Shown here: in pieces, positions 37,095 through 47,376 of the stretch
Layout: each line of letters opens with the position of its first letter
Position numbering within the stretch: position 1 is the stretch's first letter
Origin: Thiosocius teredinicola
GTDB lineage: Bacteria > Pseudomonadota > Gammaproteobacteria > Chromatiales > Chromatiaceae
Length of the DNA: 64,000 bases
Direction of reading: 5' to 3'
Assembly (NCBI RefSeq): GCF_002009425.1
Contig: NZ_CP019936.1
Location: 1,785,297-1,849,296, forward strand
Program-made: the position numbers and the translations under genes
Notes under the pieces: model-generated
The model's database searches: none
What the model saw: only the letters and a program-made list of their open reading frames with translations
Told to the model about the DNA's origin: nothing

Positions 37095-37862
37095 TTGGAT
37101 TTCGAGCGACGGTTCGGCGGTATCACCAGGCTCTACGGTCAAGCGGCACTGGACAGGCTGAGCGGTGCGCGTGTCTGCGTGATCGGTGTCGGCGGTGTCG
37201 GCTCGTGGGTGGTCGAGGCGCTGGCACGCAGCGCGGTAGGGTCATTGACGTTGGTCGACATGGATCATGTCGCCGAATCGAACGTCAATCGTCAATTACC
37301 GGCGACCGAACCGGATTTCGGCAAGGCCAAGGTCGCGGTGCTCGCCGAACGTATTCGTACGATCAACCCGGACTGCCGGGTGACCTGCATCGAGGATTTC
37401 GTTACGCCCGACAACATCGACAGTGTGGTCAGTGCCGATCACGATTGGGTGATCGACTGCATCGACAATTTTCGGGTCAAGGCGGCGTTGATCGCCGCCT
37501 GTAAACGACGCCGCCAGGCGATTGTCACCACGGGTGGGGCGGGCGGTCAGCGTGACCCGACGCGAATCCGTGTCGGAGATCTGCGCAAGACCGAACAAGA
37601 TCCACTGTTGGCGAAAACGCGCAAGCTACTGCGCCAGGCGTATGGTTTTCCGTCGAATCCCAAGCGGCGTTTCGGCATTCCCTGCGTCTGGTCCGACGAG
37701 CCGCAGCATGCGCCGGAAAGCGCATGCGAGACAGCGGTGGAAGGGTCGCTCAACTGCGCCGGCTTTGGCGCCTGCATGCCGGTAACGGCGAGTTTCGGCA
37801 TGGCAGCGGCCGCCCTGGTGGTTGACCGCCTGGTGCAAGGCGGCGCACAAGACGAAGGCTGA
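37095..37862 (+). CDS. tcdA: tRNA threonylcarbamoyladenosine dehydratase
   Basis: E1-like enzyme that cyclises t6A37 to ct6A37 in tRNAs, with ATP. The Rossmann ATP-binding loop VIGVGGVGSWVVEALARS, the SNVNRQ segment and the catalytic-type Cys region (FGIPCVWSDEP; SLNCAGFG) are those of TcdA/CsdL. A TTG at 37095 (LDFERRFGG) is preferred because AGGGG lies at 37081-37085 and the homologous N-terminus is short; a TTG at 37077 in the same frame is the alternative. About 255 residues. Its gap to selU (155 bases) contains CGTTAATATAACG, a possible operator. Confidence 0.92.
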   Translation: MDFERRFGGITRLYGQAALDRLSGARVCVIGVGGVGSWVVEALARSAVGSLTLVDMDHVAESNVNRQLPATEPDFGKAKVAVLAERIRTINPDCRVTCIEDFVTPDNIDSVVSADHDWVIDCIDNFRVKAALIAACKRRRQAIVTTGGAGGQRDPTRIRVGDLRKTEQDPLLAKTRKLLRQAYGFPSNPKRRFGIPCVWSDEPQHAPESACETAVEGSLNCAGFGACMPVTASFGMAAAALVVDRLVQGGAQDEG

Positions 37863-37876
37863 GCAATCGCTGTAAG

Positions 37877-38782
37877 TCAGTCCTCGTCGAGCCCGCCGAA
37901 AGCGTCGACCACCGCAGGGAGAAAGTTCGCCAATTCCATGCTCATCAGGGCGAAGTCGGCGTCGAAGCGGGCGAGGGCGTCGTCGGCATCGACCTCTGCG
38001 GCCTGCTCCATGACCAGATCGAGAAACCGCAGGCGACGAATGCCCAGGTCGTCGCACAGCAGGCAGCTGATCCGTTCCTGCCAATCCACGGCGAGCTTGG
38101 CGACCATCATGCCGGTATCGAGATGCGATTTGACCTCGGCGCTGGCCACATCGATGCGTTTGCCGCGCATGACCCCGCCGTTGTCGACCGGCTCTTTGAG
38201 TTCGCATTCATCGCCCAGCACGAACTCGCGCGCCGGCTTTTTCTCCAGCCATTGGGTCAAGGTCTTTGCCGGGGAGCGTTGTACCGCCAGCGGCTTGGCG
38301 CGCAGGCTGCCGAGCGTTTCGCGCAGGGTGCTCAACAGTTCTTCGGCTTTCTTGGCCGTACCGCTGTCGATCACGATCCAGCCGTCCTTGGGGTCGATAT
38401 AGGCGTAGAGATGGCTTGAGCGGGTGAAAGCGCGTGGCAGCAGGTCGACGATGACCTCTTCCTTGATGCGCTGCTTTTCCTTGCGGCCGACCGGGCGTGC
38501 TTCGGCTTCTGCGATTGCTTCGGCCTTCTCTTCGACGTGTTCGCGGATCACCGCCGCCGGCAGGATGCGGTCCTCACGGCGCAGGCAGATCATCAGCCGC
38601 CCGGCAGTGGCGTGTACCAGCTGGGTCGCATCGCGACCGGCCGGCGGCACCCAACCCACACGATGGGTATCAAGGCCGGCGCATGGCTTGAAGGCGTGCT
38701 GCTGCAGGGTCTCGTGGAGGGCTTCGGGGTCGAGCCCGAACGGCTCGCTCAATCGATACAACTGCAGATTTCGAAACCACAT
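37877..38782 (-). CDS. rdgC: Recombination-associated protein RdgC
   Basis: Ring-shaped double-stranded-DNA-binding protein that restrains RecA. The 301-residue sequence has the family N-terminus MWFRNLQLYRL and the characteristic blocks VGWVPPAGRDATQLVH, GRLMICLRREDRILPAAVI, DLLPRAFTRSS, DPKDGWIVIDSGTAKKAEEL and SCLLCDDLGIRRLRF. It is convergent with tcdA and divergent from rapA (111-base gap). Confidence 0.95.
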   Translation of the reverse strand: MWFRNLQLYRLSEPFGLDPEALHETLQQHAFKPCAGLDTHRVGWVPPAGRDATQLVHATAGRLMICLRREDRILPAAVIREHVEEKAEAIAEAEARPVGRKEKQRIKEEVIVDLLPRAFTRSSHLYAYIDPKDGWIVIDSGTAKKAEELLSTLRETLGSLRAKPLAVQRSPAKTLTQWLEKKPAREFVLGDECELKEPVDNGGVMRGKRIDVASAEVKSHLDTGMMVAKLAVDWQERISCLLCDDLGIRRLRFLDLVMEQAAEVDADDALARFDADFALMSMELANFLPAVVDAFGGLDED

Positions 38783-42486: not shown

Positions 42487-43494
42487 TCAGGGCGTTCCGA
42501 TTCGCGTGCCCGACGATCTGCAGCGGGTGCGTACTGGCTTTTTAGCCTGCAACTCATCGAGCGTGGCCTGGATTGGCCCGAGCAGGGCAGGCTGATCGGT
42601 TTCTGCGATAGCCAGCGCGCGTTGCGCGGTGGCAATGGCCTGTGTGTGACAACCGAGCGCGGCTTGTACCTCAGCCAGGTTGTTCAGCGCGGCCGCGTGC
42701 CGCGGTTGCTGTTCGATGATCAGGCGATACTCTCGTTCTGCCTCGGTGAATCCGCCGGAAGCATAGAGTGCATGTGCATAGCCGAATCTGGCGGTTGGGT
42801 TCGACGGCCAGCGTTCAAGCATCACCCGATAAGCAGCCTGTCTTGCACGCGGCGTCAACAGCGGCTCTGCGACGGCGGTCGCACTGAGCATACGGTCCAG
42901 CGCTGGTTGTGCCGGCAAACTACCCGGACGCAAAGCGACAACGCCCCATCGTTCTGCCAGGCGCCAGCTACGTAAGAACTTGTGTGCCGACATCAGCTCC
43001 CTTCTTTGCGTCCCGGAGCGCAGCACAACAGTGTCGTCGATCGGGTTAAGTCCGACGACTACCGCATAGTGCCAAACCGGCCAAAAGCCGAGTCCCAGAT
43101 TCTGCATGACGAGAACCGGGTGCCCGGCGTCGATTTCCGCGCGCAGCGCAGACAGCGACGGTTCGATGACATAGGGAATGCGGCCGGCGCGACGTGTGGC
43201 GGCGAGCATCTCGACTTGCAGTGAACCCTTCTTGGCCGGGACATACACCTGGCCAACAAGGTCATCGGGCGATACACCGACACCGCTCGCATCGAGTACG
43301 GTCGCCAGGGCCGCCGGACCACATTGGTAGTCCTGCTGTGGATAGAAGGGGGTATCACTGAGCTCGATAGGCTGGCTCAGAGGCGGTGCCAATTCAGGGA
43401 GCACTGGCGGCCGGCTTGCGCAGGCCGCCAATGTGACGAGGCACGCGACTACAGCACAGCAGCGGAGGCTGCTTTTGATGCGACGCGTATTCAG
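42487..43494 (-). CDS. PA2778-family cysteine peptidase lipoprotein with TPRs
   Basis: A lipoprotein with a C39-like peptidase domain and C-terminal TPR repeats. The only standard start (TTG 43431) would give a lipobox Cys at residue 4 and no signal peptide. A CTG at 43494 overlaps the stop of the upstream gene (CTGA) and gives MNTRRIKSSLRCCAVVACLV-TLAAC, a perfect lipoprotein signal; I choose it (335 residues). With that start the catalytic Cys is C58 (YQCGPAAL) and His is H141 (WHYAVVVG). TPRs span about 230-310. It pairs with a PA2779-family gene as in Pseudomonas. Function unknown. Confidence 0.82.
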   Translation of the reverse strand: MNTRRIKSSLRCCAVVACLVTLAACASRPPVLPELAPPLSQPIELSDTPFYPQQDYQCGPAALATVLDASGVGVSPDDLVGQVYVPAKKGSLQVEMLAATRRAGRIPYVIEPSLSALRAEIDAGHPVLVMQNLGLGFWPVWHYAVVVGLNPIDDTVVLRSGTQRRELMSAHKFLRSWRLAERWGVVALRPGSLPAQPALDRMLSATAVAEPLLTPRARQAAYRVMLERWPSNPTARFGYAHALYASGGFTEAEREYRLIIEQQPRHAAALNNLAEVQAALGCHTQAIATAQRALAIAETDQPALLGPIQATLDELQAKKPVRTRCRSSGTRIGTP

Positions 43495-43871
43495 ACTTTG
43501 GTGAAGATATTGGTGACCCCGACCAGTTCGAGGATCAACAACACGACAAAGACCACGCCGATCACCGCGAGCACGCTGCCACCGGCCGGCAGTTCATCCA
43601 ACTGTGCCGACAGCATCTGCAATTCTTCGGTACTCAGTGCCGCAATACGTGCATCGACCTCGGCCGGTGAAACACCCTGCTGCAGAAACTGCGCACGAAT
43701 ATCGTCACGCGCCAGTTGGCCCTGGATGCGGTTCAACAACTCGCCCCGTTGATCGAGCTGTACCAGCGTATCGGTGCCGATCGGTGCCGCCAGACTCACG
43801 ACCGGCAGACCGAGCAGGCTGGTTGTCACGATCAGCAGCATGGCGATGAACTTTTTGAAGATATTTTTCAC
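43491..43871 (-). CDS. PA2779-family protein
   Basis: A 126-residue protein (GTG start) with a signal peptide or N-terminal helix (about 5-28, cleavage after SLA), a helical middle with QGVSPAEVDARIAALSTEEL, and a C-terminal membrane helix (about 98-118, VLAVIGVVFVVLLILELVGV). This matches the PA2779 family, always next to PA2778-type peptidases; it may be the peptidase's partner or substrate. SD-like GGGGGT precedes the GTG. The downstream peptidase gene starts within its stop codon. Confidence 0.85.
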   Translation of the reverse strand: MKNIFKKFIAMLLIVTTSLLGLPVVSLAAPIGTDTLVQLDQRGELLNRIQGQLARDDIRAQFLQQGVSPAEVDARIAALSTEELQMLSAQLDELPAGGSVLAVIGVVFVVLLILELVGVTNIFTKV

Positions 43872-44601: not shown

Positions 44602-47376
44602 ATGAGCTTGGGGGTGCGAGTGTTTCTCGAATCTTTAATAACGGGTGTTGGAAGTGGAGTAGCGAAAGGGGTTTTTCGTGTTTGGTTGAAAGATCAAGCG
44701 TTGTTGCTTGGTGTGGGTGAGGAATTTACAGACGTATTGAAAGAAGCAATTCCCGATATTCGGAAACGTAGGTCTACCCAGCGACAGTTTGAACAGATTG
44801 CCGACAGAGCGGCGGAAAGTGTTCTGCAAATGCTCGAAAAAGAAGGCAAAGATATCAGCGATGAAAGGCTGGATATAGTTATAAGCGCAGCAGGGGCTAC
44901 TATTTTGACAACCAATATTACTGCGGAACTTGCAGCTAGTGAAAGCCTTAGCCCCGATAGATTGCTTAGGTATTTTCTGAACAAGAAAGGTAGTGAGGGG
45001 GGTAATCCGGGAAAAGAATTCTCAGACGAAGAATCTCAAATATACTCCAGGATTCTTCATCACGCATCGCAGTTAATTGTAGATATATCTTCTCAGCTAC
45101 CTAGGTTTCAGGAGGCTGTATTTTCTGAAATCTTGTCTCGACAGACAGTATTGATTGATAAAGCGAATGAAGTGGTGTCTGGAATAGATAAGATTCTCAA
45201 AAGTCAAGAAGGTGAAAGTATCGCGCACAAGAGGTTTGAATCTGACTACAGGATAGCGTGCATTCGAAAGTACGATCGCCTTCAGCTATTCGGTGTGGAT
45301 GTGCAGAACTCACATAGGCGTTATCAACTGAGCGTTGCTTACGTTGCGCTGGAAGTGGAGCTGTCGAAGCGTATGCGAATGGAGCAAGCTCTCAGCGCCA
45401 CAACTCGACTGTTTTTGCGGGGAGCCGCAGGATCAGGAAAAACGACTTTGCTGCAGTGGTTCGCGACTAAAGCAGCTGGTCGTGAACTTAATGGAACGCT
45501 TGCGGAGTTCAATGGCTCTGTCCCCTTTTTGATCAAGCTGAGGGACCTTCGGTCGGATAGTTTTCCGAGTTTGGAAGATTGGCCATATAAAGTCACAGAC
45601 GCACTCAGTGGTAAGCCTTCTGATTGGGTTCACGGGATTGTGAGTGACGGTAGAGCGATAATTTTGATAGACGGAGTCGACGAAGTATCGGAGTACAACC
45701 GAGGGCGCGTGTTGGATTGGATAGATCATCTAACGAGTCTTTATCCACGCAACTATTTTGTAGTTACTGCGAGGCCTCATGCTGTCCCGGCCCAGTGGTT
45801 AGAACGTGCAGGATTTACAGTGGCTGAAGTTAAGGAAATGGGGCGTGATGATATTGTCCAGTTTATCGACCATTGGCACAAGGCGATCCTTCTGAATTGC
45901 CAAGACGATAGAGAAAAAAAAGATATAGAGAAATTCTCCCATGCATTGAAGGTGAAGATCACTAATGATGTCTCGCTTTATCGTTTGGTTAGCAATCCAT
46001 TGCTGAATGCCATTATATGTGCGCTGCATCGCGAGCGCGTGGAAAATTTGCCTAGCGACAGAATTGAGCTTTATAGAGCTTGCGTGGACATGTTCTTCCG
46101 AAGAAATCGTGAACGAAAAGTGAACATGGAGGACTATGTTGAATTGACAGATAGGCAGTTGCTTTTCTTGCTACAGGATCTTGCCTGGTGGATGATTCGT
46201 AATGCGAAAACAACAGCCACACGGTTGGAAGTCGAGGATAGATTCAATAGAACGATGTTGTCTTTGGCTGAATGTCCAATTGATGCAGATGGCAAACAAT
46301 TGTGTAAATTGTTTGTTGAGCGGGTCGGTATTCTCAGAGAGCTTTCGCCGACGAATATCGATTTTCCACACAGGACTTTTCAAGAATACTTGGCAGCATA
46401 TGCTGCGGTTACAGAGAATGATCTTGGCTCGTTAATTAGTAATGCGCACGATCCACAATGGAGGGAGGTGGTAATAATAGCTGCAGCACTTATAGCAGAT
46501 GTGAAGAAGGCGGAGAAGTTCATTCTGCTGCTTCTGGAGAAGGGAGACAAAGGGTGGCATCGGGAGATATTGTATATTGTCGCTGCCGCGTCTCTTGAGA
46601 GCGTGGTTCATTTACCTCACATAAGGCGGGTTCAGACGCTAGTCGAAAAGCGCTTGGAAAAGATTGTGCCACCGAAGAGTATATCGGGAGCGAATGAACT
46701 AGCGAAAAGTGGTGATTTAGTTGTTTCCTTACTTCGCTACAATGAAGATTGGGATGTGGAGAGCTCATGCGCATCAATTCGGTCTTTGTCGATTATCGGG
46801 ACTGAAACTGCTACTTATTGTCTTATTGGATGGACGGCGGATCGCCGGCCCGAGATTCATAAGCAGATTAGTTTGTCGCTTAGGGATTCACAAGCGCGGA
46901 CTGTATCCAGGGTTTGCAAGGATTGGAAGAATCCTCAGCACGTTAAGGAGTTGGATTTGTCGACAATCCCGATGGATAATTTTGCATTTTTGGAGAAGTT
47001 TGTGAATTTGGAGGTTCTGAACTTAGCATATACAACAATAAATAATATTGATGCTTTACAAAGTTTGAAGTCGTTGCGTATTCTGAATCTCGAAGGTACG
47101 AAAGTTGATGATATCTCTGCGTTGCGCGAGTTGAGTTTAGTTGAGGATCTCAATTTGGCGTTGACTCTTGTCTCTGATATAGAGGTTTTGGGAGATAAGG
47201 AACAATTAACAACATTGAATTTGATGAACACAAATGTAGAGAGTGTTGCAGCGCTGACGGGCTGTCGTGCTCTTCGTGAATTGAGTGTATTGGGGGTTAG
47301 AGTAGATCGAAAAGAAATAGTGAAGCTGAGGCGGGAGAATAAAAAGGTTAGGATAATAGGTCGAGAATCACAATAA
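44602..47376 (+). CDS. NACHT-LRR protein, bacterial NLR-like STAND ATPase (probable anti-phage)
   Basis: A 924-residue protein with the plan of an NLR: an N-terminal helical region (about 1-200, no recognised effector motif), a NACHT ATPase with Walker A GAAGSGKTT (274-282) and Walker B ILIDGVDE (354-361, the DGxDE form typical of NACHT), sensor-like VVTARPHAVP (387-396), winged-helix and helical arms (FPHRTFQEYLAAYAAV), then about five 22-residue leucine-rich repeats near the C-terminus (LEVLNLAYTTINNIDALQSL, LRILNLEGTKVDDISALREL and so on). Bacterial NACHT proteins are known anti-phage sensors. The ATG at 44602 has a poor SD. It stands alone, in AT-rich DNA. NLR architecture is clear; ligand and effector action are unknown. 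Confidence 0.9.
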   Translation: MSLGVRVFLESLITGVGSGVAKGVFRVWLKDQALLLGVGEEFTDVLKEAIPDIRKRRSTQRQFEQIADRAAESVLQMLEKEGKDISDERLDIVISAAGATILTTNITAELAASESLSPDRLLRYFLNKKGSEGGNPGKEFSDEESQIYSRILHHASQLIVDISSQLPRFQEAVFSEILSRQTVLIDKANEVVSGIDKILKSQEGESIAHKRFESDYRIACIRKYDRLQLFGVDVQNSHRRYQLSVAYVALEVELSKRMRMEQALSATTRLFLRGAAGSGKTTLLQWFATKAAGRELNGTLAEFNGSVPFLIKLRDLRSDSFPSLEDWPYKVTDALSGKPSDWVHGIVSDGRAIILIDGVDEVSEYNRGRVLDWIDHLTSLYPRNYFVVTARPHAVPAQWLERAGFTVAEVKEMGRDDIVQFIDHWHKAILLNCQDDREKKDIEKFSHALKVKITNDVSLYRLVSNPLLNAIICALHRERVENLPSDRIELYRACVDMFFRRNRERKVNMEDYVELTDRQLLFLLQDLAWWMIRNAKTTATRLEVEDRFNRTMLSLAECPIDADGKQLCKLFVERVGILRELSPTNIDFPHRTFQEYLAAYAAVTENDLGSLISNAHDPQWREVVIIAAALIADVKKAEKFILLLLEKGDKGWHREILYIVAAASLESVVHLPHIRRVQTLVEKRLEKIVPPKSISGANELAKSGDLVVSLLRYNEDWDVESSCASIRSLSIIGTETATYCLIGWTADRRPEIHKQISLSLRDSQARTVSRVCKDWKNPQHVKELDLSTIPMDNFAFLEKFVNLEVLNLAYTTINNIDALQSLKSLRILNLEGTKVDDISALRELSLVEDLNLALTLVSDIEVLGDKEQLTTLNLMNTNVESVAALTGCRALRELSVLGVRVDRKEIVKLRRENKKVRIIGRESQ

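Follow-up and report, generated by a model that had tools for sequence, protein, structure and literature searches.

The PA2778-family peptidase gene of Thiosocius teredinicola, one of a pair that we studied within a 64,000-nt stretch of its genome (the window), is likely to start at a CTG codon (position 43494) that overlaps the TGA stop of the PA2779-family gene ahead of it, and its translation is likely to be coupled to termination of that gene. From an open frame, the absence of canonical starts, a conserved lipobox, the geometry of the overlap, the likeness of two other loci (L003 and L058) and the lack of a Shine-Dalgarno sequence, all of which are observed, we infer initiation at CTG.

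Results

The two genes are arranged head to tail on the minus strand, with PA2779 first. The upstream gene (43491–43871, GTG start) encodes a PA2779-family (DUF6627) protein that matches NF033919 at 102.2 bits, against a cut-off of 40, and the Pfam family PF20332. The downstream gene (42487–43494, 335 aa if read from CTG) encodes a C39-like cysteine peptidase with TPR repeats, predicted to be a lipoprotein, which matches NF033920 at 298.6 bits (cut-off 150) and contains Peptidase_C39_2 and TPR domains according to Pfam. Matches to solved structures were uninformative, the best 60 of 274 all falling in the TPR part. In the same region, and divergently oriented relative to the pair, a plus-strand gene (44602–47376) encodes a NACHT protein with an NNH1 N-terminal domain and C-terminal leucine-rich repeats (Pfam), which is a candidate bacterial NLR-like protein; PADLOC 2.0.0 gave it a weak PtuA match only (E 0.004).

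On the minus strand PA2779 ends in ACC AAA GTC TGA, and the same bases read AGT CTG AAT ACG CGT CGC ATC AAA in the frame of PA2778. The CTG (43494–43492) and the TGA (43493–43491) thus form a CTGA junction (43491–43494), which is the in-phase -4 nt overlap in which start and stop share TG, if CTG is the start. The open PA2778 frame runs from 43593 down to a stop whose last base is 42487; between the upstream in-frame stop and a TTG at 43431 (43429–43431) it contains no ATG, GTG or TTG. That TTG lies three codons ahead of the lipobox cysteine codon (TGC, 43420–43422) and would make the cysteine residue 4. Read from CTG, the peptide is (M)NTRRIKSSLRCCAVVACLVTLAA followed by the cysteine as residue 25, so that 24 residues (43423–43494) precede it and, judged by eye, provide the n-region and hydrophobic stretch of a lipoprotein signal. 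The preliminary description of this DNA had pointed out the lone, badly placed TTG, the 24-residue signal gained from CTG and the overlap with the stop, and all three are borne out by the sequence. No canonical start is thus found at a workable place.

Two lines of evidence indicate that a start upstream of TTG is needed. In an alignment of 14 chosen family members, the lipobox cysteine column is at least 90% conserved, and Q53, C58 and H142 of the C39 domain, which we take to be the catalytic Gln/Cys/His of a C39-type peptidase, are invariant (14/14). Between Thiosocius and its closest relative, L003 (69%), NG86 gives a dN of 0.26 and a dS of 2.7, the latter being saturated, and the differences at codon positions 1, 2 and 3 number 73, 65 and 193 (311 codons). 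By this substitution pattern the gene is under purifying selection and thus maintained, and because the cysteine is conserved as well, the product is most likely made as a lipoprotein, which requires initiation ahead of 43431. Initiation at the TTG, which would yield a cytoplasmic peptidase devoid of a signal, has in its favor that it is the lone ATG, GTG or TTG in frame before the cysteine. However, it would place a conserved lipobox cysteine at residue 4, it has no Shine-Dalgarno sequence, and most inspected relatives have a full signal with a start, so that the outcome that would have spoken against CTG, relatives keeping a short TTG start with no signal, does not hold. We therefore rejected TTG, to which we give very little credence. 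We consider it improbable, too, that the gene has no efficient start, either because it is decaying or because a sequence error hides an ATG. About nine of 189 family loci also have no canonical start (once L114 and L106 are discounted), some of which may be assembly errors, but this explanation is at odds with purifying selection, an intact family match (298.6 bits), the invariant Gln/Cys/His columns and the equal absence of a canonical start in L003, a separately assembled genome. The least probable explanation of all is a ribosomal frameshift from PA2779 into PA2778 producing a fusion. The PA2778 frame is indeed open 33 codons into PA2779, but no slippery heptamer was seen by eye, the phase between the two genes differs among relatives, and in the fusion the lipobox would sit behind the hydrophobic C-terminal part of PA2779.

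Initiation at the proposed CTG would occur without a Shine-Dalgarno sequence. The energy of pairing with the anti-Shine-Dalgarno core is 0 at the CTG, ACG, ATC and TTG codons of the Thiosocius gene, and -1.8 and -2.3 kcal/mol at the CTG of L003 and L058, respectively. Similarly, none of 20 in-phase ATGA, GTGA or TTGA junctions in the family reaches -4 kcal/mol or better. Since this value is reached by 16% of 169 background positions and 8% of 89 non-overlapping ATG starts, the measure is crude and we used it solely to state that the overlaps are without such a sequence. A 100-nt fold around the junction revealed no special structure (z = -1.56; 19 of 200 shuffled sequences folded at least as stably).

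Searches recovered the gene from six of the nine same-genus genomes (E up to 1e-30) and from 24 of 210 genomes of the same family (E up to 1e-20). Within the genus, CTGA is in phase in four copies (Thiosocius, L003, L004 and L006) and out of phase in L005 and L008; elsewhere it is also in phase in L009, among others. A C precedes the PA2779 TGA in all six copies. We rejected this as a sign of selection for a start: the C is present even in the two out-of-phase copies and therefore follows codon use. L003 comes closest to the Thiosocius arrangement, with an in-phase CTGA whose CTG is 23 codons before the cysteine and canonical starts (GTG at 8 codons, TTG at 3) that are not usable. Canonical starts other than at the CTGA site are found in the remaining four copies (three ATG and one GTG): L004 and L006 have a GTG 17 and an ATG 19 codons before the cysteine, both downstream of CTGA, while the ATG of L005 and L008 is at 18 and 14 codons. 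A more distant parallel is provided by L058, on a contig labelled Burkholderiales, whose product matches NF033920 at 304.8 bits and would begin LNTQR, compared with LNTRR in Thiosocius. The CTG of its in-phase CTGA precedes the cysteine by 21 codons, its sole canonical start is 136 codons before the cysteine, and there is no ATC, ATT or ATA between 12 and 36 codons before it. In a tree of 53 chosen proteins, Thiosocius and L003 are sisters with weak support (90/61), a clade (100/97) unites five of the six genus members and is joined weakly by the sixth (84/37), and L058, paired with the ATGA-bearing L139 (96/49), stands beside the genus (94/96 for the eight). The preliminary description had asked whether relatives have an ATG where Thiosocius has CTG. 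This is so in the wider family, where nine of 189 junctions carry an in-phase ATGA at a matching distance of 19–29 codons before the cysteine (in one, L084, a cysteine assigned by a looser rule), and in none of the six same-genus copies. Separately, L037 has 370 nt between the PA2779 stop and the cysteine and the closely related L039 has 112; the difference looks like an insertion ahead of the signal peptide.

The relatives also bring forward a serious rival. ATC is a near-cognate start codon, and one lies at 43479 (43477–43479), 12 nt past the PA2779 stop and 19 codons before the cysteine. An ancestral ATG may have become this ATC and translation may begin there, giving MKSSLRCCAVVACLVTLAAC (MKSSLRCC...), which has a more compact lipoprotein signal. 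An ATC stands at this distance in both Thiosocius and L003, the ATG of L006 is also placed there, and in the four same-genus copies that do have a usable canonical start it is 14–19 codons ahead of the cysteine. The codon is also within the coupling distance of less than 25 nt given in the part of PMC7538156 that we draw on. On the other hand, L058 has no ATC, ATT or ATA at a useful place yet has the CTG; the Thiosocius ATC is without a Shine-Dalgarno sequence, and the pairing in L003 (-5.9) is about 14 nt away; L044 and L045, whose start forms an ATGA, likewise have an ATC at 19 codons, so that such a coincidence is not rare; and the CTG, by overlapping the stop, is nearer the terminating ribosome. 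We consider CTG the likeliest start and ATC the next, although in itself a start at ATC seems unlikely.

How unusual the CTGA is was assessed at two scales. As a control we took the open frames in the window that end in TGA and span 100 codons or more; 30 of them have a frame in the overlapping phase that is open for at least 150 codons, and 13 of these junctions read CTGA. None of the 12 besides our own was accepted as a comparable site. In ten, the frame already contains a canonical start further upstream, and at 1548 an ATG follows one codon later. The last, at 37859, is followed by 88 codons free of canonical starts, but it is opposite a listed 301-aa minus-strand frame (37877–38782) and looks non-coding. 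For the family, 229 loci (L002 being excluded beforehand) yielded 212 in which the PA2778 match scored 80 bits or more. These formed 198 clusters at 97% identity, each represented by one row, with the cysteine assigned by the looser rule in 12, including L084 (ATGA) and L105 (TTGA). Removing five rows with no upstream stop and four with a stop-to-cysteine distance outside 30–300 nt left 189 junctions. CTGA is in phase with PA2778 in 21 of 45 CTGA junctions (p = 0.043), but six of these read TGATG, where the ATG is the obvious start, and leaving them out gives 15 of 39 (p = 0.30). The three canonical overlaps behave differently, being in phase in 9/10 (ATGA), 5/8 (GTGA) and 6/9 (TTGA) cases, while 29 of 117 TAA and TAG stops fall in that phase. 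We therefore rejected an overall surplus of CTGA in phase. A CTGA overlap by itself is not clearly commoner than chance would give; the unusual feature is its occurrence where a canonical start is missing.

Eleven of the 189 loci have no canonical start 13–40 codons before the cysteine. Three have an in-phase CTGA (Thiosocius, which is L001, L003 and L058), and the others are L158, L202, L106, L114, L161, L164, L174 and L212, for some of which a start lies outside that range: an ATG at 41 codons in L114 and at 50 in L212, TTGs at 42 and 46 in L106 and a TTG at 46 in L174. In-phase CTGA is found in 3/11 start-less loci versus 18/178 others (p = 0.11, or 0.29 without the Thiosocius locus). The CTG is thus kept in the start-less relatives L003 and L058, with no statistical excess over the 189 junctions. 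Since these statistics are not significant, the use of CTG is not proved by counts and the case rests on individual loci. For coupled CTG initiation as put forward in the preliminary description, this means that the absence of a canonical start, and the CTGA of L003 and L058 with no usable alternative, stand in its favor, while CTGA is not clearly enriched, the ATC persists as a rival and four of the six same-genus copies start elsewhere. Four start-less loci (L161, L164, L174 and L212) have neither a canonical start in range nor an in-phase CTGA; assembly error, frameshift, a longer N terminus and other near-cognate starts are all candidate explanations for them. L158 and L202, which are sisters in the tree (100/99), present a different picture. 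Both have a CTG 21 codons before the cysteine, after GGGGGG (-8.8 and -9.3), and because the frame of L202 opens only 22 codons before the cysteine, CTG is the best start candidate there. The signal read from it has no Lys or Arg. These two genes probably start at a CTG behind a strong Shine-Dalgarno sequence, and the family may therefore use CTG both by coupling and by direct recruitment.

PA2778 starts also appear weak when all loci are considered. We applied one rule to both genes, blind to which canonical codon was present: a start 13–40 codons before the end of the signal, with Lys or Arg after it. ATG accounts for 147/186 starts in PA2779 versus 80/172 in PA2778 (Fisher p = 2.3e-10), a comparison in which the loci are related, starts as well as the end of the PA2779 signal come from prediction, PA2779 is the single control gene and three further loci at contig edges are excluded. 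Among further PA2778 loci, ten have no candidate start and four have no candidate with Lys or Arg. Clustering at 80% gives 123/159 versus 66/148 (p = 3.4e-9), and a cruder count of any ATG in range gives 180/186 versus 105/186. That PA2778 starts are weaker than PA2779 starts family-wide is, from these predicted starts, a lead only.

Discussion

The mechanism that we favor for the Thiosocius gene is that ribosomes terminating PA2779 at TGA would halt with the CTG adjoining the P site and, with no Shine-Dalgarno sequence, the ribosome or its 30S subunit would take initiator tRNA and restart at CTG. The product would be a pre-lipoprotein with a 24-residue signal and presumably Met as its first residue despite the CTG codon. 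Translation of PA2778 would then depend on that of PA2779, and its expression level would be expected to be low. A broader and tentative idea, which we consider possible but on the doubtful side, is that PA2778 is kept on weak starts across the Gammaproteobacteria, probably holding the peptidase well below PA2779. CTG would be the extreme, arrived at on no fewer than three occasions (as coupled CTGA in the Thiosocius genus and in L058, and as Shine-Dalgarno-led CTG in L158/L202). If the weak starts are real, poor initiation would characterize PA2778 in general, with CTG at the far end, and start strength together with coupling would set the ratio of PA2779 to PA2778 protein. The coupled CTG start, if real, would show that an overlapping stop can aid initiation outside the usual three codons, and lipoprotein signals and other N termini located after CTGA may then be lost in annotation; start-site annotation can easily err at CTG-on-stop arrangements. 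The last PA2779 codon offers a clean natural test, since GTC could be replaced by its synonyms GTA, GTG or GTT, which would give ATGA, GTGA or TTGA.

The individual elements of this arrangement have precedents in the portions of the literature that we draw on. NTGA is given as the commonest bacterial stop/start spacing (PMC12548453), an AUGA overlap with no Shine-Dalgarno sequence required translation of the upstream frame (PMC11260477), and reinitiation at overlaps is supported by PMC6728339, although PMC7538156 questions whether one and the same ribosome reinitiates at coupled pairs in E. coli. As for the codon, the CTG start of FIB rep was established by N-terminal analysis and mutation, and annotations often place that start wrongly, at a GTG lying 14 codons further on (PMC11983097, which also cites Hecht et al. 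for CTG being some 10 times weaker than TTG). Other passages are less favorable. The CUG of Caulobacter dnaA bound ribosomes in vitro and was unused in vivo (PMC8443254), changing a leading-frame AUG to CUG (termed a "non-start codon") in mycobacteria severely lowered downstream expression (PMC11260477), and in the part of PMC2268962 consulted non-AUG reinitiation occurred only with altered initiator tRNAs, with no CUG among the cases. The parts of PMC13068326 and PMC11445065 consulted contain nothing on CTG starts, and we set aside PMC4648390 as support because it concerns eukaryotic cells. Among the papers listed in searches of a mainly open-access collection, no title or opening abstract describes a CTGA-coupled bacterial gene. 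We consider the Thiosocius gene a probable new case of a known arrangement, a CTG start on a neighbour's stop being uncommon though not without precedent.

The parallels with known systems can be drawn at three levels. Compared with coupled NTGA (-4 nt) pairs, the Thiosocius pair is alike in geometry, gene order and the lack of a Shine-Dalgarno sequence, which is likewise missing from the 20 canonical overlaps of the PA2779–PA2778 pair. The difference is that its N is C, giving CTG, whereas the sources, in the parts used here, name ATGA, GTGA and general NTGA and none names CTGA. With FIB rep, as described in the relevant part of PMC11983097, PA2778 would share a CTG start and the choice of a later canonical codon in annotation; FIB rep, however, has a good Shine-Dalgarno sequence and experimental proof, whereas PA2778 has no such sequence, overlaps a stop and is argued from sequence only. 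Finally, compared with other PA2778–PA2779 pairs defined by NF033920 and NF033919, the Thiosocius pair is alike in family match, gene order and lipobox, and differs in its start codon only.
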